A stretch of DNA of 64,000 nucleotides from positions 1 to 64,000 of IMG/VR virus record IMGVR_UViG_3300023202_000383; one strand, written 5' to 3'. The notes under the pieces were generated by a model. That model was not told the DNA's origin. It saw only the letters and a list, made by a program, of their open reading frames with translations, and did no database searches. The position numbers and the translations under genes are program-made. The stretch is from a virus. Shown here in pieces: positions 3,921-49,741 of this stretch. Numbering within the stretch: the first letter of the stretch is position 1; each line of letters starts with the position of its first letter.

Positions 3921-4241
3921 TTACTTAGATAATGCTGAAGACGTTATCATTCTTATTATCGATGCAACCACGTCTGCAAAATCACCACCATCAACAACAT
4001 ACCATACATTTTTGAGTTTTATTACAGGAAATGACGACATATCTAGACGCCCAGTTTCAGTGGATTCGTCTTCACCAGACTCTATTGATTCAGCAATAGT
4101 TGGCTGCAGAACAAACACGAATCCAACCCCTGCCCCAGCTTTGTCTAGAGCGTCTAGTTGATCGGACACGGATCTGTCCGGTATTTCAACAAAGCTGTCA
4201 TTTTTCCAATTATCAGCCGGTATTATTCTTATAGTATCCAT
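3921..4241 (-). CDS. Hypothetical protein, 106 aa
   Basis: Small acidic protein with an alternating hydrophobic stretch (GVGFVFVLQP) and a Ser/Glu-rich central loop. No recognised motif. It is a member of the minus-strand run 2076-6940. Function unknown. Confidence 0.55.
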   Translation of the reverse strand: MDTIRIIPADNWKNDSFVEIPDRSVSDQLDALDKAGAGVGFVFVLQPTIAESIESGEDESTETGRLDMSSFPVIKLKNVWYVVDGGDFADVVASIIRMITSSALSK

Positions 4242-24626: not shown

Positions 24627-24748
24627 TTATCAGTAGTATAGTGATAAAAATATTAAGAAGACATTATTTTAATAAAATAATCAAAGACTTATTAGACACA
24701 AGATATGCAGAAGAAAGTTATGAATGTATTATACTTGAAGAAAAGTAG
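24623..24748 (+). CDS. Small hypothetical ORF, 41 aa
   Basis: Starts in an ATGA overlap with the glycosyltransferase stop and encodes a short basic-then-acidic peptide (MIISSIVIKILRRHYFNKII at the start). Its stop codon is the first TAG of the 8-bp repeat array at 24742, so the array may have truncated a longer gene. Real translation is plausible but unproven. Confidence 0.4.
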   Translation: MIISSIVIKILRRHYFNKIIKDLLDTRYAEESYECIILEEK

Positions 24749-24805
24749 CAAAGTAGCAAAGTAGCAAAGTAGCAAAGTAGCAAAGTAGCAAAGTAGCAAA
24801 GTAGC
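24742..24805. repeat. 8-bp tandem repeat (AAAGTAGC) x8
   Basis: Eight perfect head-to-tail copies. Because 8 is not a multiple of 3 and each unit contains TAG, the array places stop codons in all three forward frames. It separates the glycosyltransferase cassette from the structured noncoding region. Confidence 0.9.
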
Positions 24806-24846
24806 AAAATAACACCAGAGCAAAATAACACCAGAGCAAAATAACA
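24806..24846. repeat. 16-bp tandem repeat (AAAATAACACCAGAGC) x2.6
   Basis: Two perfect copies and a partial third directly abut the 8-bp array. The unit shares the AGCAAAA junction with it. No coding potential. Confidence 0.85.
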
Positions 24847-24855
24847 AGATTTGTA

Positions 24856-25243
24856 GATGGGAATCTCATATTGTCGGATCTGGTCCAGGCGAGATATGAG
24901 ATTGACTTTCCATCAGATTAATCCAGATCCCGCAAAGGTAGAGAACTACCTTCAGCGAAAATCCGATTGCTGAGAGAGCGCCCGGTAGGCTATTTCACCG
25001 GTCTAAGCCTACCATTCACCTTGGATAACCATTGGGTTACATGGCAAAAATGCAACAAGCAAAGCACAGTAACTCCCAGGAGAACACCCGCAGTCTCCGG
25101 CTCCGGGCCTAGCTATATCGGTTGGCACCCTGGGGATTAGAAACCAGGCTCTGTCATTACTAAATACCTACGCTGCTAGAAGCAGTGGGCAAAAGGGCCG
25201 AAATCGGGAAGGTTCCTGTCCATGGCAGCGTGAGAGTCAGACG
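24856..25243 (+). ncRNA. Putative large structured noncoding RNA with 5' pseudoknot
   Basis: About 390 bases with no supported ORF, between the repeats and a terminator-like hairpin. Perfect pairings read directly: 24862-24871 with 24894-24903 (10 bp), interlocked with 24876-24883 and 24923-24930 (8 bp), which is a pseudoknot. Others are 24935-24941/24946-24952 (7 bp, AGAA loop), 24984-24991/25006-25013 (8 bp), 25129-25133/25144-25148 (5 bp) and the closing 25170-25176/25225-25231 (7 bp). The region is clearly more GC-rich than flanking genes. It does not match tmRNA, RNase P, 6S or tRNA signatures I know. Known large phage ncRNAs such as GOLLD or ROOL are candidates, but I cannot test them here. 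Confidence 0.6.
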
Positions 25244-25244
25244 T

Positions 25245-25301
25245 GATTAAAAAAGAAAAAGATGTTTCTCTCTTCGATTTTTCTTCTTCTTTTTTTTAAT
25301 C
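25245..25301 (+). terminator. Long A/T-rich hairpin, terminator-like end of the ncRNA region
   Basis: GATTAAAAAAGAA pairs with a downstream TTCTTTTTTTTAATC-like arm around a pyrimidine-rich loop. The run of T in the 3' arm resembles an intrinsic terminator, or the closing stem of the noncoding RNA. It precedes the promoter-like motif and gene at 25364. Confidence 0.45.
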
Positions 25302-25345
25302 ATCATGATCTCTCCAAGGTAAGGGAAACCGGACTATTTATAAAT

Positions 25346-25363: not shown

Positions 25364-25585
25364 ATGTTTAAATGGCTTTTCGGCAGCAAGAAGCAAGAAA
25401 TGCATATCCATGTACATGTGGATGGTATTTTGAATGTTCAAGGTCAGGATTTAAAGCTTGGCATAAATTCGGATGCAGATATAAGCAACAATAAACAGGA
25501 TCCAAAAGAATCACACATACCTGAAATGGACCCGACAATTGGAGAAATTGACTTACCGCAGGTAGAATTTGGCGAAGAGGACTAA
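25364..25585 (+). CDS. Hypothetical protein, 73 aa
   Basis: A short N-terminal amphipathic segment (MFKWLFGSKKQEMHIHVHVDG) followed by an acidic tail. The first codons are immediately downstream of a TATCAAATATAAAA motif. It ends two bases before the actin-like gene start and is probably co-expressed with it, perhaps as a partner or adaptor. No family recognised. Confidence 0.5.
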   Translation: MFKWLFGSKKQEMHIHVHVDGILNVQGQDLKLGINSDADISNNKQDPKESHIPEMDPTIGEIDLPQVEFGEED

Positions 25586-25586
25586 A

Positions 25587-26615
25587 ATGATTAAAATAGG
25601 ATTAGATCTTGGCACAAAGACAATCGTTTCTGCTAAAAGAGGCGAAGAAAACAAGCCTATATTCAAGCATGAAATAAATGGGTTTTATGAATTCCCGACA
25701 CCAGATAGCTTTACAAAAAAGCTGTTGGTTGGTCAGAAAATACCATTTGTTGAGAAGGATGGCAAGATATATGCTCTTGGCCGGAAGGCTGAGCAGTTTG
25801 CATATGCTGTCAATTCTACTCTTCGTAGACCGATGGCTGATGGTACAGTTAGCAAAGAGGAAGAAGCCATTAATATTATGGCATCGATTGTCCATGCTAT
25901 AATTGGCAAGTTAGATGATGATGCAATATTGTACTATTGTATCCCAGCAGACGCTATAAATAAGAGCACAAATGTGCAGTTCCACCAGAAGATTGCACAG
26001 ATGATAATTGATCGGTATCAAAGAAGTAAAGTAACTGTCAAGGGTTATCCTATCAATGAAGCCAGAGCGTTAGCTATAGGTTCTGGTGAGCCGGTTTGTA
26101 TTGCTGTGTCATTTGGTGCTGGTATGGTCAATGTTTGTTATTGCATGTACGGCATGTCAGTGTTTGAATTCAGTTTAGTTGGTAGCGGAGACCGGGTTGA
26201 TGCGGAGGCTGCTAGGCAGTTTGGATATGATCCAGAAAATCCAAATAAGAGCAGTCGCGAAACGCCGACAACCATGTGTAAGAGAAAGCACCAAATAGAT
26301 CTGACAAAATCTAAAGATGAAGTAGATAGAAAAGACCAGGCGATAATGATTTCGTATCAGATTCTGATAGAGAATGTTGTTGACGGTATTATAAAGGGTT
26401 TCAACGAAAACGAAGAAAAAGCCAAGATAGATCAGGCAATCCCTGTTGTAATAGCTGGTGGTACTTCATCTCCTCCGGGGTTCGGCGAATATTTTGAGGA
26501 GATTATGAAGTCTAAAGAACCCCCGTTTGAAATATCCACTATAACGGTACATCCTAGACCATTATATGCTGTTGCGGAAGGTTGTCTTATCGCTTCTGAG
26601 AGTCATGAGGAATAA
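25587..26615 (+). CDS. Actin-like ATPase (MreB/ParM/Hsp70 superfamily)
   Basis: 342 aa from the ATG at 25587. IGLDLGTKTIVSAK (phosphate 1), VSFGAGMVNVCYC (phosphate 2) and VVIAGGTSSPPGF (adenosine motif) are the three signatures of the actin/Hsp70 ATPase fold. Length fits MreB/ParM-like filament proteins. In jumbo phages, tubulin-like or actin-like filaments position DNA or segregate genomes. Here the gene stands directly ahead of virion-like genes rather than beside an obvious adaptor-centromere pair. Role in the cell is inference. Confidence 0.85.
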   Translation: MIKIGLDLGTKTIVSAKRGEENKPIFKHEINGFYEFPTPDSFTKKLLVGQKIPFVEKDGKIYALGRKAEQFAYAVNSTLRRPMADGTVSKEEEAINIMASIVHAIIGKLDDDAILYYCIPADAINKSTNVQFHQKIAQMIIDRYQRSKVTVKGYPINEARALAIGSGEPVCIAVSFGAGMVNVCYCMYGMSVFEFSLVGSGDRVDAEAARQFGYDPENPNKSSRETPTTMCKRKHQIDLTKSKDEVDRKDQAIMISYQILIENVVDGIIKGFNENEEKAKIDQAIPVVIAGGTSSPPGFGEYFEEIMKSKEPPFEISTITVHPRPLYAVAEGCLIASESHEE

Positions 26616-29992: not shown

Positions 29993-30634
29993 ATGATTAC
30001 CGGCATCACACAATTCGGGTTGGAGGGGCGTGTAGCAACGGTGGATCACGACCCGGCTATCGTGTCGACCGATGTCCCCGCAGGTTCGATTATCCTGTCG
30101 ACCTCCACAGGATTGCTCTACCGAAAACTCACCGGCGGCAGCAACACGGATGTGTTGCCGATGACCGCTTCCAGTCAGCCGTTCGATTGGGACAGCGGGG
30201 CGTCGGCGGTCGCGGCGGTCGTCGCGGCCGGGATGCTGTCGCTCGAATTGCTTGCCGATACCGACTCGAAGGTAGTCGGCGGCGACGTTGCCCCGCTGCA
30301 CGTCGACCTCGATCAGGCGTTGGAGCTTGACGTCAAGATCGTCACCCTCAGCTTGGGCGACGCGTCGGCCGACGCGCACCTGCGGCTGACGGCCCGCTAC
30401 GTGGGGTTGGGCGAGGCGGCGGACAAGACGCCCGACGAGACGATCGACCACATCTTTGAAGTCGCCAACGTAGATAAGTGCGTGCACGCCGTGACGTTCA
30501 CACTGGACCCGTCGCTTATCTCCCCCGAAGACCTGCTAAACCTGGAGCTGTCGCGGCTGGGCACGTCAGCGAGTGACGTGTTTACCGGCTCCATCGGCGT
30601 TGCCGAGAGGTCGCTGCTGAGGTTCTTTAACTGA
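29993..30634 (+). CDS. Tail-fibre/virion-like protein (GC-rich module)
   Basis: 213 aa. GC-rich, Asp/Ala/Leu-rich, with beta-strand repeats (VHAVTFTLDPSLISPEDLL) typical of phage fibre or decoration proteins. Starts one base after the preceding stop; the next gene begins in the last base of its stop. No specific receptor-binding fold recognised. Confidence 0.6.
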   Translation: MITGITQFGLEGRVATVDHDPAIVSTDVPAGSIILSTSTGLLYRKLTGGSNTDVLPMTASSQPFDWDSGASAVAAVVAAGMLSLELLADTDSKVVGGDVAPLHVDLDQALELDVKIVTLSLGDASADAHLRLTARYVGLGEAADKTPDETIDHIFEVANVDKCVHAVTFTLDPSLISPEDLLNLELSRLGTSASDVFTGSIGVAERSLLRFFN

Positions 30635-31164
30635 TGGCAAGCACGTACGAACTGATACTGTTCCGCGAGGAGACCCGAGACGACGGGAAGGTGGCGTTGC
30701 TGCGTATCCCGTTGGTGGCCGGTGCGGGGATCGACCTCGACGCGGTGATCGGGGAGGTATCCGCCGGTAGCGGTGTGAGCGTGCAGGAGGGATACGCCGA
30801 GAGCGAAGGGACCAGTTCGACGACCAGCACCAACTTTCAGCAAAAGCTCCGCGCCAGCTTGACGGGTCTAGACGCCGGTACGTATGAGGTGGCGTGGTCT
30901 TGTGAGGTGTTGCCCGGCAAAAACAATCTGGCTGCCCGCGTGCGGGTTCAAGTGGATGACACGACGACGCTAAACAGCCCTGACCCGGTCCTCAATCGAG
31001 ACAATAGCGGGGGCAACGTGAAGGGCTGGATGCCTCTCAGTGGGTTCCGTCAATTGGCATTGAGCGCCGGGGATCATGACTTCGACATCGACTTTGCTTC
31101 ACCTCAGAACGGAAAGTCAGTAGATATCCGGTTTGCGCGTATCAAAATAGCGAGGACAAATTAA
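30634..31164 (+). CDS. Tail-fibre distal/virion-like protein (GC-rich module)
   Basis: 176 aa. Serine/threonine-rich start, then a beta-sandwich-like sequence (AGTYEVAWSCEVLPG, DHDFDIDFASP, VDIRFARIKIA) of the kind seen in small carbohydrate-binding fibre heads. Overlaps the preceding gene by one base and is followed immediately by a GTG-start gene. Confidence 0.55.
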   Translation: MASTYELILFREETRDDGKVALLRIPLVAGAGIDLDAVIGEVSAGSGVSVQEGYAESEGTSSTTSTNFQQKLRASLTGLDAGTYEVAWSCEVLPGKNNLAARVRVQVDDTTTLNSPDPVLNRDNSGGNVKGWMPLSGFRQLALSAGDHDFDIDFASPQNGKSVDIRFARIKIARTN

Positions 31165-32106
31165 GTGGCCGAGCAAGCATACACGTACAGCATCGCCAGC
31201 GACTTCCCGTCGGGCGCGGTCAACACGCAGAAGCTGCACGACGAGGTCGTGGCCGACACGGCGATCACGACGCAGCTCGACCGCATCGACACCGACGGCG
31301 ACGGCTTGTCAATCGTGTTTCAGGCGGCGCTGTCGGCGGCGGAGAAGACGGCGCTGGACGGCGACACGACCGGACCGGCCGGGGGGCTGATCGCGCAGCA
31401 CGACAACAGCGCGTCCGCCCCCGACTACGGGAAGATGCAGATCGACGGGATCTCCCCGGACGCCAACGGCTCGCTGCCGCAGGCCCCGATCATCTCCACG
31501 CCGGGCCACCGGCTCAACGACCGCGACGTGCTGGTGCGGGTGGGCGAGTTCGACAACCCGTTCGAGGACCTGCGGGTCAACCCCGACGACAACAAGGAAG
31601 TGGCGTGGGGCGAGGTCACGTGCGACCCGGCCGACACCGATCCGGCGAACAAGACCGGGGTATTCAAGCTCGACGGCAACGGCGACTGGGTCCGCTGCAC
31701 CGACCAGACCGACGCGGCCGCCAACGCCGGGCTCACGGTCCTGGAGTACCAGGCCCGGCAGGGCGGCGTGGCCGGGGGCGATGCGCTCAAGTACGACGTG
31801 CGGGGCGGGACGCTGTGGGTCGACTCCAACGTGCCGGACGACGGCGACCGCTGGTCGCACCGCGTCTATTCGGTCGGTGCCCCGGACCTGTCGGCCGTCC
31901 TCGGCGGCCGGGTGCCGTTCTTCGACGGTTACCTGTTTCCCTATCGCAACAACTGGATGCAGACGCTCAATCCCGTGGCGTTCCCGATGGATCCGTCGGC
32001 GTCGGCGGCGGCGAGCATCGTCCGCGTGTGGTTCTATTACAAGGCGGGCACGGCGTACGAGCACGTGCTGCGGTTCCACCTGTACCGACCGACCGGAAGC
32101 TGGTAG
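31165..32106 (+). CDS. Tail-fibre-like protein (GC-rich module, GTG start)
   Basis: 313 aa from a GTG directly after the preceding stop. YTYSIASDFPSGAVNTQKLHDEV at the start resembles the virion-attachment repeat found in fibre proteins of siphoviruses and myoviruses, and the C-terminus is a jelly-roll-like beta domain. The most GC-rich gene in the window. It probably determines host binding (inference). Confidence 0.6.
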   Translation: MAEQAYTYSIASDFPSGAVNTQKLHDEVVADTAITTQLDRIDTDGDGLSIVFQAALSAAEKTALDGDTTGPAGGLIAQHDNSASAPDYGKMQIDGISPDANGSLPQAPIISTPGHRLNDRDVLVRVGEFDNPFEDLRVNPDDNKEVAWGEVTCDPADTDPANKTGVFKLDGNGDWVRCTDQTDAAANAGLTVLEYQARQGGVAGGDALKYDVRGGTLWVDSNVPDDGDRWSHRVYSVGAPDLSAVLGGRVPFFDGYLFPYRNNWMQTLNPVAFPMDPSASAAASIVRVWFYYKAGTAYEHVLRFHLYRPTGSW

Positions 32107-33529: not shown

Positions 33530-33702
33530 AAGACGTCGGCAAAGCCAAACTGGAATCAGAGAAAGCTTTAACTGAGTATCTAAAATGCCAGCAAGAACTG
33601 CTGGTAATGATCAATAAACAAATGGATCTGGGAAGAATCTACGCTGAGAAGAGAGCCGAATATTTGGCTTTGAAAGAAGATAATGAGCCAGGAATTGATT
33701 AA
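33526..33702 (+). CDS. Small helical protein, 58 aa (GTG start)
   Basis: A GTG at 33526 overlaps the upstream TGA (GTGA). The frame runs 58 codons: a charged amphipathic helix rich in Lys, Glu and Leu (KAKLESEKALTEYLKCQQE). It ends overlapping the convergent endonuclease stop by four bases. No family recognised, but coupling and codon usage support it. Confidence 0.5.
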   Translation: MKDVGKAKLESEKALTEYLKCQQELLVMINKQMDLGRIYAEKRAEYLALKEDNEPGID

Positions 33703-35327
33703 GGTTTCAATATAAATTTATAATGTCCAGCATCCCACAGTCTTCTATATTTATTATTAAACATATTTTCGGCCTCGGTAAGACGCGAGTCGAAATTTTC
33801 TAGTAATTTTGATAATTTGTGTTTTTGAAAGTGTTGGCGAGAATACAATATCGATGTGTTGCCGTCTTTATAATATTTATAATTTGGCTTAGTTAAACCG
33901 CATGGTTTGAATCCTAATTTTTTATATAAATTTCCTGTCGAATATCTTGCGTCTGCATATGTTAAAATTGATTTTGGGTCATGTAATGCTATAAAATGAT
34001 TTAGTAGTTTTCCTGCTCCCCCGATAGCTGTTGAACCTATAGCTTGTGCGTATCTTATTATTTCCCATTTATATTTATGGTGCTTGGCAAAAGACATGCA
34101 TGCGACTAATTCTCCATTATATGTTAATCCAATTCTTACCGATGCATCCCGCGATCCATATATATGGTTTTCAGTCATAAATGAATCGTAATCTTTTGTG
34201 TTCAACGATATTATTTTACATTTTCTGGCGTATAATTTTGATGAATACCCAAGTTTATGATTTATTATTGATTTGACTATATTTTGTTTGTTTGACCATT
34301 CGTCCTCGTTTATTTGCAGAAGTTGTATATTGTTTTCTACGCATCTAGTATGTTTAGCTTGATGTTTAAATCTTTCGTCTTTTGATTCAGTATGGTTGTA
34401 TGAATGGTAATATAACCCATTATATTCGATAGCTACGTTATGATTTGGCAGATAGATATCGATTTCTAATGGATATATTGTCTTTCTATCGTTAATAATA
34501 TATTCAGTATTTATCGATTTTATATATTCTATTATTTCTTGGTGTGGTTTAGAAATCGAGTTAGAGCATTTAGGGCATCCGTGTCCGTTTAAATGATTAC
34601 TTACTGTTTGGGAAAAATTGCCGTGTATGATACATGTTATTGTGATTGGTTCCATGTACCCGCTGTAATTGGATTTGTCATATGAATATTTGTCGCCGTG
34701 GATCGATATTGCTCTATTTATTATATCTTCTGTTGTAGGTGTGTTTATTGCACATTTAGGGCAACCGTGGCCTTCGAGGTGCCTTCTGGTTAATTGTTTA
34801 AATTTGCCATGTTTCGGGCATTTTATTATTATGTGACTTCGATATGATTTATATATCGAATCGCTATAATCATATTTGTTATTGTGTAATTTTGATGATT
34901 TATTTATAAAATCGTCAATTGTATTACTTAAATTTTTTATTCCGCATAATTTGCACCCATACTTTCCGTAGATGTGTGATTTTGGTGTTTGTTCGAATTC
35001 GCCGTGTTCTGGGCATATTATTGTGATTTTTGTATAGCTATTGACATACTCAGATTTACTATAATCATACTTATCGCCGTGCACTAATGTTGCTTTTTCT
35101 ATAAATTTATTTAGTGGCAATTTAAGATTTTGTTTTTGTTGTTGCCTAAAACATTTTTTGCATCTTGCGCCTTTTTTGTGATTTCTAGCGCGTTGTCTAA
35201 ACTCTCCGTGTTCCGGGCATATTATTGTGACGCGTCCGCTCAATTCAATTTCTGTAACCTTTGAATAGTCATACTTGTTATTGTGTATCAGGGATGATTC
35301 ATGTATAAAGCGTTGTAATTTATTCAT
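33699..35327 (-). CDS. Hef-like homing endonuclease (DUF723 repeats, EDxHD/Vsr-like nuclease, acyltransferase-like C-terminus)
   Basis: About 542 aa from the ATG at 35327. Four or five tandem DUF723-type units (HGDKYDYSK ... CPEHGEF ... H..G.GCPKC) form the DNA-binding half. LEIDIYLPNHNVAIEYNGLYYH is an EDxHD/Vsr-like nuclease core. The C-terminal 150 residues (SFMTENHIYG ... TYADARYSTGNLYKKLGF) are an acyltransferase-like domain, ending with the signature FQKHKLSKLL ... WDAGHYKF tail. It is convergent with small genes and divergent from the polymerase gene, consistent with a free-standing mobile nuclease next to its target. Confidence 0.85.
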   Translation of the reverse strand: MNKLQRFIHESSLIHNNKYDYSKVTEIELSGRVTIICPEHGEFRQRARNHKKGARCKKCFRQQQKQNLKLPLNKFIEKATLVHGDKYDYSKSEYVNSYTKITIICPEHGEFEQTPKSHIYGKYGCKLCGIKNLSNTIDDFINKSSKLHNNKYDYSDSIYKSYRSHIIIKCPKHGKFKQLTRRHLEGHGCPKCAINTPTTEDIINRAISIHGDKYSYDKSNYSGYMEPITITCIIHGNFSQTVSNHLNGHGCPKCSNSISKPHQEIIEYIKSINTEYIINDRKTIYPLEIDIYLPNHNVAIEYNGLYYHSYNHTESKDERFKHQAKHTRCVENNIQLLQINEDEWSNKQNIVKSIINHKLGYSSKLYARKCKIISLNTKDYDSFMTENHIYGSRDASVRIGLTYNGELVACMSFAKHHKYKWEIIRYAQAIGSTAIGGAGKLLNHFIALHDPKSILTYADARYSTGNLYKKLGFKPCGLTKPNYKYYKDGNTSILYSRQHFQKHKLSKLLENFDSRLTEAENMFNNKYRRLWDAGHYKFILKP

Positions 35328-35385
35328 AATAAAATATCTTTGATTACAGATAGATCCTCTGCATTGCGTGTTGTATTTTATATAC

Positions 35386-36747
35386 ATGGTTGACATAATG
35401 AAATATAATGGTCCTACAGACTTTGCTCATCTTCATGTCCATACTTTATATAGTACGCTTGATGGGGTTCAATCTCCAGAAGAATTGTTTTCTACGTGCA
35501 AAGAAAGAGGATGGAGTGCGTTAGCCGTAACCGAGCATGGGACATTGGCATCAGTCCCAGACAATTATGCGGCTGCAAAAGAATACGGCGTAAAGTATAT
35601 AGTTGCTTGCGAAATTTATTACAATGATTATGAACCGACTAGGCAAGATCTTGTTAAAGAAGATGTTAAAATTCGCAAGCTAAAAGAAACCGACCCTAAT
35701 TTTTATTATAAAATGTCTAGAAATAGGCATTTAACAGTCCTTGCTAAAAACGATAAGGGTGTGGAGAACATAATAAAATTGACCACTCAAGCGTGGGAGA
35801 CTGGATTTTATTATAGGCCGAGGATATGGTTTGATAAATTAGATGAATATAGAGAGGGTTTATTGGTATTGAGTGGATGTTTAAATGGGCCTGTTTCTCA
35901 TGAGTTAAGACATGGGAATTTAAGGTCTGATGATATGAGAGGTGCATTAGACTATATACATAAATTCAAAGAAGTATTTGGCGATGATTATTTTGTAGAA
36001 TTGCAGATGCCTTGTCTTCCTGATTTTCCTGACCACAAAGTCTTCCGTGCATTAAATCATATAGCTAACAAGTACAATATACCGAAAGTTCTTACAAATG
36101 ACGCACATTATCTAAATCGTGAAGACTTTGAAATCCAGAAATTAATGATGGCTATATCCCAGGGTTTAACTGTTGATGATCCGAATCTGTTCCATGTAAA
36201 TAGTGATGAGCAATATCTTAAAACCAGAGCAGATCTATGGCACACATTTAAGACTGGGAAAGACGGCAAATATTGTGAATATGTGACTGATAGCGAATTT
36301 GAAGATATGTGCAACAACACATTGGTAGTTGCCGGTAAATGTGATAATTTCGAACCTGATTTGTCGTCGAAGGTTCCTACATTAGATAATGACGAGCAGA
36401 TCTTAAGAACCCTTGTGTACGATAGGCTTAAGCAAGAGGGATTCGATAAAGATGAAACTAAGTACAATATAGACAATAAAGAAGTTACTTATAGAGAACA
36501 AGCCGACATAGAATTGAATAGGTTTATTGAGAAGAATTTCGCCAGCTATTTCTTGATAACCAGAGATTTGGTGCAGTATAGTTTAGATAACGGTTGGCCT
36601 GTTGGACCGCGAGGTTCAGTTGGCGGCAGTCTAGTGTGTTATTTATTGGGCATAACCGAGTTGGATCCAATAAAATGGAATTTATCGTTTAACAGGTTTT
36701 TAAGCCCCTCGCGCGGAGGAAAGATGCTAAACATTAAGGCAGAATAG
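35386..36747 (+). CDS. dnaE: DNA polymerase III alpha, N-terminal piece (PHP domain plus start of palm)
   Basis: 453 aa. HLHVHTLYSTLDG, VTEHGT, VLSGCLNG and LTNDAHYL are intact PHP metal-binding motifs, suggesting proofreading-type or pyrophosphatase activity. The C-terminus reaches GPRGSVGGSLVCYLLG and SFNRFLSPSRGGKM, where normal DnaE continues directly into the catalytic PDxDxD. Here it reads LNIKAE and stops. An ATG at 35398 is an alternative start. The catalytic Asp pair lies in a separate gene at 39423, so polymerase activity needs assembly of the pieces. Confidence 0.88.
   Translation: MVDIMKYNGPTDFAHLHVHTLYSTLDGVQSPEELFSTCKERGWSALAVTEHGTLASVPDNYAAAKEYGVKYIVACEIYYNDYEPTRQDLVKEDVKIRKLKETDPNFYYKMSRNRHLTVLAKNDKGVENIIKLTTQAWETGFYYRPRIWFDKLDEYREGLLVLSGCLNGPVSHELRHGNLRSDDMRGALDYIHKFKEVFGDDYFVELQMPCLPDFPDHKVFRALNHIANKYNIPKVLTNDAHYLNREDFEIQKLMMAISQGLTVDDPNLFHVNSDEQYLKTRADLWHTFKTGKDGKYCEYVTDSEFEDMCNNTLVVAGKCDNFEPDLSSKVPTLDNDEQILRTLVYDRLKQEGFDKDETKYNIDNKEVTYREQADIELNRFIEKNFASYFLITRDLVQYSLDNGWPVGPRGSVGGSLVCYLLGITELDPIKWNLSFNRFLSPSRGGKMLNIKAE
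36733..36746. repeat. 14-bp direct repeat flanking the homing endonuclease, copy 1 (copy 2 at 38615-38628)
   Basis: ATTAAGGCAGAATA occurs at the end of the polymerase N-terminal gene and again just before the gene at 38629. An extended TAAACATTAAG segment is shared too (36728-36738 and 38604-38614). Removing the interval would place the ATG at 38629 immediately after the polymerase stop, as expected if the endonuclease gene is an insertion. Confidence 0.8.
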
Positions 36748-36777: not shown

Positions 36778-38613
36778 ATGATAAATGTACAACGAAGCAA
36801 AGAAGTGTTTGGATTAAAAAGCATCAATAGGATTCCTAAAAAACAGAAAGTTATATGTAATTGTGATGTTTGTGGGGTTGAATCACGTATTACTAAGCAG
36901 CACCATTATATATGCAGCAAACGTGCTGGTTTATATAGATGTAAAGATTGTGGTAGAAAAGCCATGGCATCTAAAGTATCAAAAGCCATGATATCAAAAT
37001 GGCAAAACGACAAATACAAATCCAAGCAGATTGGCAGGACTCATAGCGATGAATTAAAGGAATATGCTAGGCAGAGAGCTATCAAATTGTGGAAAGATAA
37101 AGAATATGTGGCAAAGTATAATGCTGGGTTTGACCCGGCCAAGGCTAGAAAGAATCTAAAGGCCACCAGATCGGTTGCCAATAAAGCTGCATCGCTTGCT
37201 ATGGCTGATAAATGGCAGGAAAAAGAATATCGCAGTAAAATGTCAGATCAATCAGCTAAGCTATGGAGTAACGATTGTTATAGAAACAAAGTAATAAGTA
37301 GCCTCAAAAAACATTATTCGTCATTAGAAGTTTTAGATAGATGTTCAAATAGAGCGAAAAAATTGTGGAAGAATAATGATTATAGGGATAGGTGGTTCAA
37401 ATCATTTATGCAATCATTTGGCAATGAAAGGTTACACGAAATTTCATTACAAAGTGCCAAGAATTGGGGAGACCGAGAATATAGAGATAAAATAGAATCA
37501 CAATGGGACGATCAAAAACGTGCAGAAATGTCCGAAATATGTAAAGAATGGTGGACTGATGATAGGAGAGCTGAAGTTTCTGAGATTATGATAAGTAGGT
37601 GGTCGGACCCTAATTTTAGAAAGAAAACAATAAAAGCATTTATTGATTCATGGACTGAAGAACGCAGGCAGGCTGCTAAAGATTCATGGACTGAAGAACG
37701 CAGGCAGGCTGCGTCTGATAGATCCAGGAATTTGTGGAAAGATCCGAAATATGTTAGCAAGATGGTTGATATGATCGGGAGGCCGTCGTCTTTAGAAATT
37801 CAATTCGCCAGCTTATTGGATGATTATGGCATCGAGTACACGCAACAGTTCCATTTAGGGCCATATTTATTTGATTTTAAGGTCAACGATGTCTTAATAG
37901 AAATTAATGGCGATTATTGGCATAGATTGCCGAAGACAATATCAAAAGACAAGGCTAAAGCTACTTATGTTGAAAAACATTATCAGCAATATCAGCTTAA
38001 GTATTTATGGGAGCATGAATTTTATCAATTAGAAAAGATTAATAAATTTATTGAATTCAGTTTTGTTGGTTCTGACGTAGAAGAGGTTGATTTTTCAGAA
38101 TTAAAATTTGTTACTGATATAGATTATGATTCAATAAAATCGTTAATTGAGAAATATCATTATAAAGGAAGTATTGGTCGGGGTGGGGTGTATTATGGTG
38201 TTATATATCGTGGTAATTTGATCGCTGGGTCTGTTGTTGGGTCACCAACTAGGAATGTTGTTGGTGGCGAGTTGTTACGATTTGTTATACACCCACAGTA
38301 TCAGGTCAAGAATCTTGCATCGTGGTTTTTGAGTAGAATCTCAAAGCATGCTTTGAGAGATTATGATTTATTGTTTACATTTGCTGATCCGAATTTTAAC
38401 AATTACGGCACAATATATGAGGCTAGCGGCTGGGAATTTGCTGGCGAAACAAAATCAGATTATTGGTATGTTAGCGAAGACGGTTGGGTTATGCATAAAA
38501 AGACTTTATGGAATAGAGCAAAGAATTTATGTATGTCAGAAAGGTATTTTGCTGAGGTTTTTGGATATAATCGGGTATATGGGTTGCCAAAGAGAAAGTA
38601 TATTAAACATTAA
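36778..38613 (+). CDS. Free-standing EDxHD/Vsr-like homing endonuclease inserted in the fractured polymerase
   Basis: 611 aa. An N-terminal Cys/His zinc finger (CNCDVCG ... YRCKDCG) is followed by seven or more NUMOD-like repeats (KLWKDKEYV, KLWSNDCYR, NLWKDPKYV). The nuclease core LEIQFASLLDD ... LFDFKVNDVLIEINGDYWH is the EDxHD/Vsr-like family described for fractured phage genes. A C-terminal acyltransferase-like domain follows. It lies between the first and second polymerase pieces and is flanked by 14-bp direct repeats. It contains an internal 30-bp tandem duplication (DSWTEERRQAA twice). Confidence 0.85.
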   Translation: MINVQRSKEVFGLKSINRIPKKQKVICNCDVCGVESRITKQHHYICSKRAGLYRCKDCGRKAMASKVSKAMISKWQNDKYKSKQIGRTHSDELKEYARQRAIKLWKDKEYVAKYNAGFDPAKARKNLKATRSVANKAASLAMADKWQEKEYRSKMSDQSAKLWSNDCYRNKVISSLKKHYSSLEVLDRCSNRAKKLWKNNDYRDRWFKSFMQSFGNERLHEISLQSAKNWGDREYRDKIESQWDDQKRAEMSEICKEWWTDDRRAEVSEIMISRWSDPNFRKKTIKAFIDSWTEERRQAAKDSWTEERRQAASDRSRNLWKDPKYVSKMVDMIGRPSSLEIQFASLLDDYGIEYTQQFHLGPYLFDFKVNDVLIEINGDYWHRLPKTISKDKAKATYVEKHYQQYQLKYLWEHEFYQLEKINKFIEFSFVGSDVEEVDFSELKFVTDIDYDSIKSLIEKYHYKGSIGRGGVYYGVIYRGNLIAGSVVGSPTRNVVGGELLRFVIHPQYQVKNLASWFLSRISKHALRDYDLLFTFADPNFNNYGTIYEASGWEFAGETKSDYWYVSEDGWVMHKKTLWNRAKNLCMSERYFAEVFGYNRVYGLPKRKYIKH

Positions 38614-47487: not shown

Positions 47488-47590
47488 TAGACTCCCTCAT
47501 ATGGAAATTTCTAAAATTATTTTTGATAACGGTCTAAAAATATTTACTCACAATGTGCTATTTAAGCAGTATTAGATGTCAGGAGGCAAC

Positions 47591-49741
47591 ATGGCTAAAG
47601 GCAAAAAAGAAAGCAAGACAGACTATTCGAACATGGACATAGACAGTCTGATGAGTAGTCTTAACAAGAAATATGGTGAGGGGTCTGTGCAGAAGTATGA
47701 TAGGGCCGCAATAGTGTCGTGCGATACTATAAGCACTGGCGTGGCCACTTTAGATGATGCTTTGCATATTGGCGGAGTACCTAAAGGGCGGGTAATAGAA
47801 ATCTATGGCCCCGAATCTGGCGGCAAGACTACTCTATCTCTGTCTATCGTAGCCGAATGCCAGGCTGCCGGTGGGACAGCGGCATTTATTGATGCTGAGC
47901 ACGCGTTGGATGTTCAGTGGGCGCACGACATTGGTGTTGATGTAGAATCATTGCTGATAAGCCAGCCGGATTCTGGCGAGCAGGCGTTGGAAATCTGCGA
48001 AGCTATGGTTAGATCGAACAAGTTTGGTATTATAGTGGTTGATTCGGTTGCAGCCCTTGTTCCTAAAGCCGAAATTGATGGTGAAATGGGCGATGCCCAT
48101 GTTGGTCTGCAGGCCAGGATGATTAGTCAGGGTATGAGAAAGCTATCTGGTGCAGTTAAGACCAGCAATACATGCTTGGTATTTATTAATCAGCTTCGCG
48201 AGAAGATCGGCGTGATGTTTGGGTGTTTACATGCTGACAATCTTATAAATTTTTCGGATGGCAAGTCGGCCACAATAAAAGACGTTGTTGATAATAAAAT
48301 CAAAGGATCAGTATGGTCTTATGATGAGGAATTAGACGAATTTTGTGAATGCCAGATTACTGATTGGCATTTCAATGGTGAAGTCAGTAATCCAGAGGAT
48401 TATTTATCTATTTCAATAAAAGGATCTGGTAATAAAAATGGGCGAATGAATATAATTGTGACGCCCGACCACGATGTGCTTACTGATTATGGCTGGGTTC
48501 GGGCAACCGATCTGGATATCGGAGACAAATTAATAACCAAGCAGCAAGATGTTATGTGTGGTGATTTAGGAAATTTTCTTAGAGGGACATTGTCTGGCGA
48601 TTCGCATATATCTCAAGCGGATGGGCACCTGTGTGCAAGTTTGAAAATCAGGGATAATATTGATATTAATTATGCAAAATGGAAGGCAAATAAGTTGTCT
48701 GCAATCAGTATGACCAAAAAGACTTATGGTAAATATGATATATATACTTCTGGGCAATTTTCTCAATTTGTTGACATAAAAGAAGATTTCCCAAACAGGG
48801 ACCCTATGCTTTTGTTGAGTAGTTTTAGTTGGCTTGGTTTTGCTATATGGATAATGGATGATGCTTGTTATAATAGAAGTAGATATGTTTTGTCTATTAA
48901 AAGGCTAAAAGGCGACCATAAAAAGATCGATGAAATTAGTAAGACACTAGACGACCTAGGCTTATATCATCATTCTAGTTATGGCGGGAAAATCACGTTC
49001 GACAAAGACATATCTGATATGATTGCCCATAAGATAGCCAAATATGTTCCTATATGTATGCGTCATAAATTACCAAATGACGTTGAATTAGATAATTATT
49101 GCGAATTTGAATTGAAGAATTCAACGAAGCAGTGCAAGACTTATGCAGAGGTTGTTGATATACGTACCGCAAGCAATAGACAAATGAAAAATGTCGGAAA
49201 ATATGATATTTCAGTGGACAGATGCCACAATTATTCCGTTGGTGGGAGACATAATGGCGTTATTGTGCACAATTCGCCCGAAACAACGCCTGGCGGTAGG
49301 GCACTGAAATTCTATGCATCAGTTAGGCTAGATGTTAGACGTACTGGAATAGAAAAAGACGGCGATACGCCGATTGGAAGTAAGGTTAGGGTAAAAGTTG
49401 TTAAGAACAAAGTGGCTCCGCCATTCTCGCAGGCTGAATTTGTTATATACTATGGCAAAGACGAGATGCCAGTATATGGTCCTGATAAGTTCGGATCCAT
49501 CTTAGATATGGCGGTAGATAAGGATATTGTTGGTAAAAGCGGGTCGTGGTATGAGTATAATGGCGATAAAATAGGGAATGGTAGGACTAACGCTGTAAGA
49601 TTCTTACAGGATTCTGATTCAGTGTCTGAGGAAATCAAAGCTAAATTGGCCGATCTTAGGAAAGCGCGTGTTGCTGAGGTCAATGAGGCCGATGAAGTTG
49701 ATGAAATCAAAGACGAAGACACAGAATCGGAAGGTGATTGA
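47591..49741 (+). CDS. recA: RecA recombinase interrupted by an intein
   Basis: 716 aa precursor from ATG 47591, preceded by [23 protein letters not shown] (Walker A), a DSVAALVPK strand and [14 protein letters not shown] are RecA core motifs. The protein continues after the intein with [20 protein letters not shown]. The extein is about 366 aa, ending in an acidic tail, close to bacterial RecA length. T4-like phages usually use UvsX; a bacterial-type RecA here is notable. The intein is in frame, so cis-splicing should restore the enzyme. Confidence 0.92.
48224..49273 (+). other. RecA intein with LAGLIDADG endonuclease domain
   Basis: 350 codons. Begins with Cys1 ([13 protein letters not shown]) after ..GVMFG, has [13 protein letters not shown] (TxxH block B), [12 protein letters not shown] and [12 protein letters not shown] as the two LAGLIDADG-like helices, [15 protein letters not shown] (block F) and ends GVIVHN before Ser. 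All canonical splicing residues (Cys1, His, terminal HN, Ser+1) are present, so it looks active. Confidence 0.9.

Follow-up and report, generated by a model that had tools for sequence, protein, structure and literature searches.

A candidate structured noncoding RNA gene upstream of a volactin gene in a huge-phage genome

Genes and features at the locus

The DNA analyzed here, called the window, is a 64,000-nucleotide stretch of a 256,507-base virus record (G000), and the genes and features of the locus itself lie on its plus strand. A volactin-family actin-like gene occupies positions 25587-26615 (Pfam PF25216, E = 5.6e-49). Upstream of it, at 25364-25585, is a gene encoding a small protein of 73 aa (MFKWLF...) that occurs with volactin in several relatives. 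Copies of the small protein lie directly or nearly upstream of volactin on contigs L124 (5762-5980), L302 (18217-18480, minus strand), and L304 (13242-13547). The N terminus is hydrophobic and basic (MFKWLF, MLQLLKKWLK, MINWLRK), and the window protein has no Pfam or PHROG match. Farther upstream, tandem repeats span 24739-24847, consisting of an array of the 8-nt unit AGCAAAGT followed by copies of the 16-nt unit AGCAAAATAACACCAG. The structured element that is our subject, about 480 nt in size, lies between the repeats and the small-protein gene. A promoter-like TATAAAT 3' of the element was discounted as too frequent in the AT-rich window.

Several other regions of the window deserve mention in their own right. 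The segment at 30001-32000 has 63-66% G+C, compared with mostly 33-46% elsewhere in the window, and was perhaps recently acquired. DnaE-like pieces are flanked by ORFs, at 33699-35396 and 36778-38613, that match DUF723 and the Mom family and resemble mobile genes. Finally, a RecA-like ORF of 721 aa (47576-49741) appears, judging from its translation, to carry an intein in mid-ORF.

The first-pass annotation had described a noncoding block at 24856-25301, distinct in composition, free of supported ORFs, containing perfect stems that include an interlocked pair, and finishing in a terminator-like end. The composition shift is real: G+C is 0.44-0.52 within the element versus 0.27-0.42 in the flanks. 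Likewise, the longest ORF overlapping the element is 57 aa, and the window RNA and its homologs share no conserved protein frame beyond short, chance-level matches. Folding of the element is more stable than expected (z = -2.44), its minimum free energy beating 99 of 100 shuffles, with 1 equally good. The named stems are all present in the sequence. They include a 10-bp hairpin, AAUCUCAUAU/AUAUGAGAUU (24862-24871/24894-24903), interlocked with an 8-bp helix, GGAUCUGG/CCAGAUCC (24876-24883/24923-24930); an 8-bp stem (24984-24991/25006-25013); and a 7-bp helix, ACGCUGC/GCAGCGU (25170-25176/25225-25231), which closes a variable domain and, like the interlocked pair, is read from the window sequence only. 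When the element was dinucleotide-shuffled 300 times, 2 of the shuffles had interlocked helices of at least 10 bp and at least 8 bp.

The G+C-rich, ORF-poor block thus stands as described, but its end and the nature of that end do not. The supposed terminator is an AU-rich internal hairpin (25244-25302, within 25232-25314) recognized by folding, and a terminator scan makes no call there of an intrinsic terminator, that is, of a G+C-rich stem and T run beyond which conservation ceases. Two long-range strands follow the hairpin: the 3' strand of a helix that we call P_long (25313-25320) and the conserved 3' end AAGGGAAACCGGACUAUU (25321-25338), which pairs back to the loop of a hairpin designated A. 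Therefore, the element reaches about 25338, past 25301. We place the structured noncoding RNA at 24857-25338 on the evidence of nhmmer and covariance-model homologs with compensatory changes; its 3' boundary is set by conservation, and its 5' boundary is uncertain.

Homologs and helices kept by compensatory change

Relatives of the locus were sought from several directions. A search of viral contigs with a volactin alignment yielded 80 loci, relatives being present in hundreds of viral stretches, and a search with a DnaE alignment yielded 53. The closest volactins are those of L124 (62% identity) and G056 (66%), and both contigs carry homologs of the RNA. The L124 homolog was detected by nhmmer with E = 4e-6, and just upstream of it a 16-nt array (CAGCAATTACGAAACT, 3945-4012) matches the position of the window repeats. 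The G056 homolog (E = 0.048 with a two-sequence profile) lies on the volactin strand, with the small protein and volactin immediately following it. A covariance model, R2, was built from these three sequences. Among 59 records searched with R2, the single record G052 gives E = 0.0044, a match that is weak alone and near the detection limit; its hairpin loop additionally matches the strand next to and after AAAGGG by 10 bp. We tentatively include G052 as the fourth member of the family. The core match and the pairing of loop A with the 3' end are found in all four members, the window, L124, and G056 matching R2 by construction.

The other 55 of the 59 records have no convincing match to R2, those in G004 and G005 being rejected because they look coding. 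A search of 48 further records, which held no positive control, likewise returned no convincing match. Descriptor matches in G002 were rejected since their sequence context lacks the conserved core, and short DNA pattern matches in viral and GTDB contigs beyond L124 and G056 were, judged by context, chance only, as were the short matches found by blastn against phages and plasmids. In the nearest other volactin neighborhoods (G002, G003, G005, and G058), the small protein lies upstream of volactin with no recognizable copy of the RNA. In the huge-phage record LR756511.1, which also has volactin and a small protein, no gap is present that could accommodate the RNA.

The most conserved stretch, AAAAUCC...CUGAGAGAGCGCCCGG, spans 24958-24985 in the alignment of the window, L124, and G056. 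Around it are hairpins whose letters change while their pairing persists. P0 (24937-24950) reads GGUAG-AGAA-CUACC in the window and CGUC-CAGAA-GAUG and GAUG-AGAA-CAUC in homologs. Hairpin A (24984-25013) is GGUAGG/CCUACC in the window and is compared across four phages; hairpin B (25079-25098), GGAG/CUCC, shows compensatory change in three. Downstream of hairpin B is the conserved CCGGGCCUA (25103-25111), which is AACGGGCCUA in L124 and G056. Hairpin C (25129-25148) reads CCUGG-GGAUUAGAAA-CCAGG in the window and CCUAA-GGAUUAGAAA-UUAGG in L124, that is, with two compensatory pairs around an invariant loop.

Two long-range helices are predicted to tie this core to the 3' end. The first is a pseudoknot (PK) in which the loop A strand CCGGU (24998-25002) pairs with ACCGG (25328-25332) in the conserved 3' end. 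The corresponding strands are CAGGU/ACCUG in L124, GAGACUAU/AUAGUCUC in G056, and UACACUGUCU/AGACAGUGUA in G052, giving PK lengths of 5, 5, 8, and 10 bp (window, L124, G056, and G052) with a different sequence in each phage. In shuffled strands, such pairing arises with probability 0.0005 for G056 and in 0 of 4000 trials for G052; the 5-bp matches of the window (0.19) and L124 (0.21) are, each alone, not significant (p about 0.2). The other long-range helix, P_long, joins ACCUUGGA (25018-25025) to UCCAAGGU (25313-25320) by 8 bp in the window. Among the three phages counted, its strands are ACCUUGGA/UCCAAGGU, GCGCAGG/CCUGCGC, and UGCAUC/GAUGCA, with chance expectations of 0.005, 0.007, and 0.09, respectively; the pairing is unclear in G052.

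With strands chosen by hand for both the counts and the swap test, pairs changed on both sides number 4 of 5 in PK, 6 of 6 in P_long, 3 of 3 in P0, 4 of 4 in B, 3 of 5 in A, and 2 of 5 in C, and every counted cell of all six helices is paired; in the swap test, where strands from different phages are combined, only about half of the cells or fewer still pair in PK (9.0/20), P_long (8.5/18), P0 (3.0/9), and B (3.5/12), and the values are 14.7/20 for A and 8.0/10 for C. The compensatory changes thus tabulated support hairpin A with its PK, P_long, and three smaller hairpins. Two extra candidate helices, AGAGN/NCUCU and GCCC/GGGC, were dropped as unproven because their letters can pair locally instead and because 4-bp matches are expected by chance.

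On this comparison, the conserved lock is the long-range pairing of loop 24998-25002 with 25328-25332, distinct from the 10-bp/8-bp pseudoknot. The latter has no visible counterpart in L124 or G056; it therefore belongs to the variable 5' domain of this particular phage.

A second RNA family in related huge phages

When ORF-free gaps in relatives were surveyed, G051, G055, and G032 were each seen to carry, upstream of volactin, another intergenic RNA of larger size. Extension by nhmmer gave nine members, whose alignment was folded. Of its 38 pairs, 30 are changed on both sides in some member; 93.5% of cells pair, versus 74.3% in shuffles, and the covariation score drops from 0.69 to 0.14 or less when the alignment is slid by 1 to 3 columns. 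The family has no Rfam match. Its covariance model, R3, finds 13 of 61 records at E of 2e-11 or better, namely, L305, L306, L308, L309, L311, L312, L313, L316, and L318, together with G028, G037, G053, and G054. When R3 and volactin positions are compared, the distance upstream of volactin is about 4-10 kb for 10 of the 13 and about 22-23 kb for those in G037 and G054; the G028 RNA is on the opposite strand, at a distance of about 20 kb. The genes downstream of the second-family RNAs are various.

R3 does not match the RNAs of the window, L124, G056, or G052, and no record carries both families. The two nonetheless share a plan. Each is intergenic, each has the UGAUAGAG core with CGG a few bases downstream, and in each, a hairpin loop pairs with a 3' strand preceded by an AU-rich stretch and a linker of AGG type. 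In several second-family members, the loop and 3' strand pairs are CUCCACC/GGUGGAG, CCUUCCCC/GGGGAAGG, and CUCCCCC/GGGGGAG. The second family differs in being larger and in having a clear three-way junction, which is not seen in the window RNA. The shared UGAUAGAG...CGG and the loop-to-3'-end lock suggest a common origin of the two families. We tentatively entertain the possibility that both belong to one fast-evolving superfamily of a huge-phage clade, defined by that lock, and that the partner of the loop may reside in another copy, building an RNA-only particle.

Possible roles and comparison with known large RNAs

The reading that we consider probable is that the element constitutes a free-standing gene, about 480 nt long, for a noncoding RNA of a huge phage. 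The notion is that it would be made as its own transcript and would act in trans in the infected cell, serving as scaffold or as RNA-protein particle, being neither a single-gene leader nor the source of a peptide. What the comparison shows is a fast-evolving fold: the loop of hairpin A pairs with the 3' terminal strand and P_long sits just inside, so that the core is closed into a compact, pseudoknotted body from which variable domains protrude. We infer the trans role solely from the varied downstream neighbors: the small protein and volactin follow the RNA in the window and in G056, a ClpP-like ORF follows it in L124, and no gene is visible after it in G052. Such differences among homologs favor a free-standing, trans-acting RNA over a cis-acting leader.

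The leader is the strongest competitor, since RNA and small-protein gene are closely spaced in the window (25 nt from the RNA end to the small-protein start) and in G056, where the RNA is again directly upstream; the RNA would then be a 5' UTR controlling the small-protein and volactin genes. We regard this reading as unlikely given that ClpP-like and sulfotransferase-like ORFs separate the RNA from the small protein in L124, that no volactin was found on the G052 contig, and that the small protein and volactin are both retained in the nearest volactin neighborhoods lacking the RNA. The tandem repeats upstream of an actin-like gene in both the window and L124 bring to mind a centromere-like DNA site for the actin-like protein, as parC is next to parM, with the iteron-like repeats as its key part. 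Paired changes that preserve RNA helices, including a pseudoknot, are unexpected for double-stranded DNA, however, and no comparable array was seen in the sequence upstream in G056, making a DNA site quite improbable. Least probable of all is that the element is a remnant of an intron, or a coding region that has decayed or is very short: the 57-aa ORF does overlap the element, but no frame is conserved among homologs, no Rfam intron family matches, and the compensatory changes argue against it.

Two RNA families from huge phages come out of this comparison: a new one, represented by the window RNA and backed by compensatory changes, and another whose covariation is strong. The structure model specifies exact base pairs for experimental test. 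If such RNAs are common in huge phages, they would provide a comparative handle on the roles of large phage RNAs.

To our knowledge, very few large, elaborately folded phage RNAs have been described, mainly GOLLD and ROOL, and none has a settled function. GOLLD RNAs, carried by phages and prophages, often lie near tRNA genes, and many members exceed 800 nt. ROOL RNAs occur in phages and prophages with a tRNA island; the solved example is 659 nt, with several pseudoknots and variable linkers. OLE RNA, a large and ornate RNA of about 600 nt, is encoded in bacterial chromosomes and is thought to work as an RNP.

The first-pass annotation had offered two labels, a new large phage RNA or a divergent GOLLD/ROOL-like one, and had proposed an Infernal search against Rfam and a covariation analysis. 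Rfam 15 has nothing above gathering threshold in the window, including group I and II introns, RNase P, tmRNA, and riboswitches; at E up to 10, the best, chance-level match is E = 0.26, and at E up to 5, nothing is significant for the L124 and G056 homologs. The GOLLD and ROOL covariance models are unmatched by the RNAs of the window, L124, and G056, and there are no tRNA genes in the window or around the homologs. With no significant Rfam family at E up to 10, the RNA is not recognizable as GOLLD or ROOL. At about 480 nt, it is shorter than either and, unlike them, has no tRNA genes or tRNA island nearby. It shares with OLE a large, ornate form and perhaps the RNP role, and differs in its phage setting and, again, in matching no Rfam family. 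The first label thus fares well, being backed by compensatory changes in three other phage contigs, the lack of an Rfam match, and the lack of coding signal.

The second label retains value as a description of likeness. The window RNA, like GOLLD and ROOL, is a large, pseudoknotted phage RNA that evolves rapidly. Its variable parts recall the linkers of ROOL, and its better conserved 3' part and variable 5' part resemble those of GOLLD (PMC12286853). Actual membership in the GOLLD or ROOL families is, given the Rfam results, the shorter length, and the absence of nearby tRNAs, very improbable. A related idea is that the loop-to-3'-end helix is intermolecular and links copies head to tail into a homo-oligomer, which would be a special form of the free-standing RNA. 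Covariation cannot separate intra- from intermolecular pairing, and P_long next to PK is easily accounted for within one chain; we rate the oligomer as unlikely, below the cis-acting leader. The analogy is drawn from the closed 14-mer cage of GOLLD and the eight-chain cage of ROOL, the latter with a conserved quaternary kissing loop, both of which form via covarying kissing loops between chains (PMC12286853).
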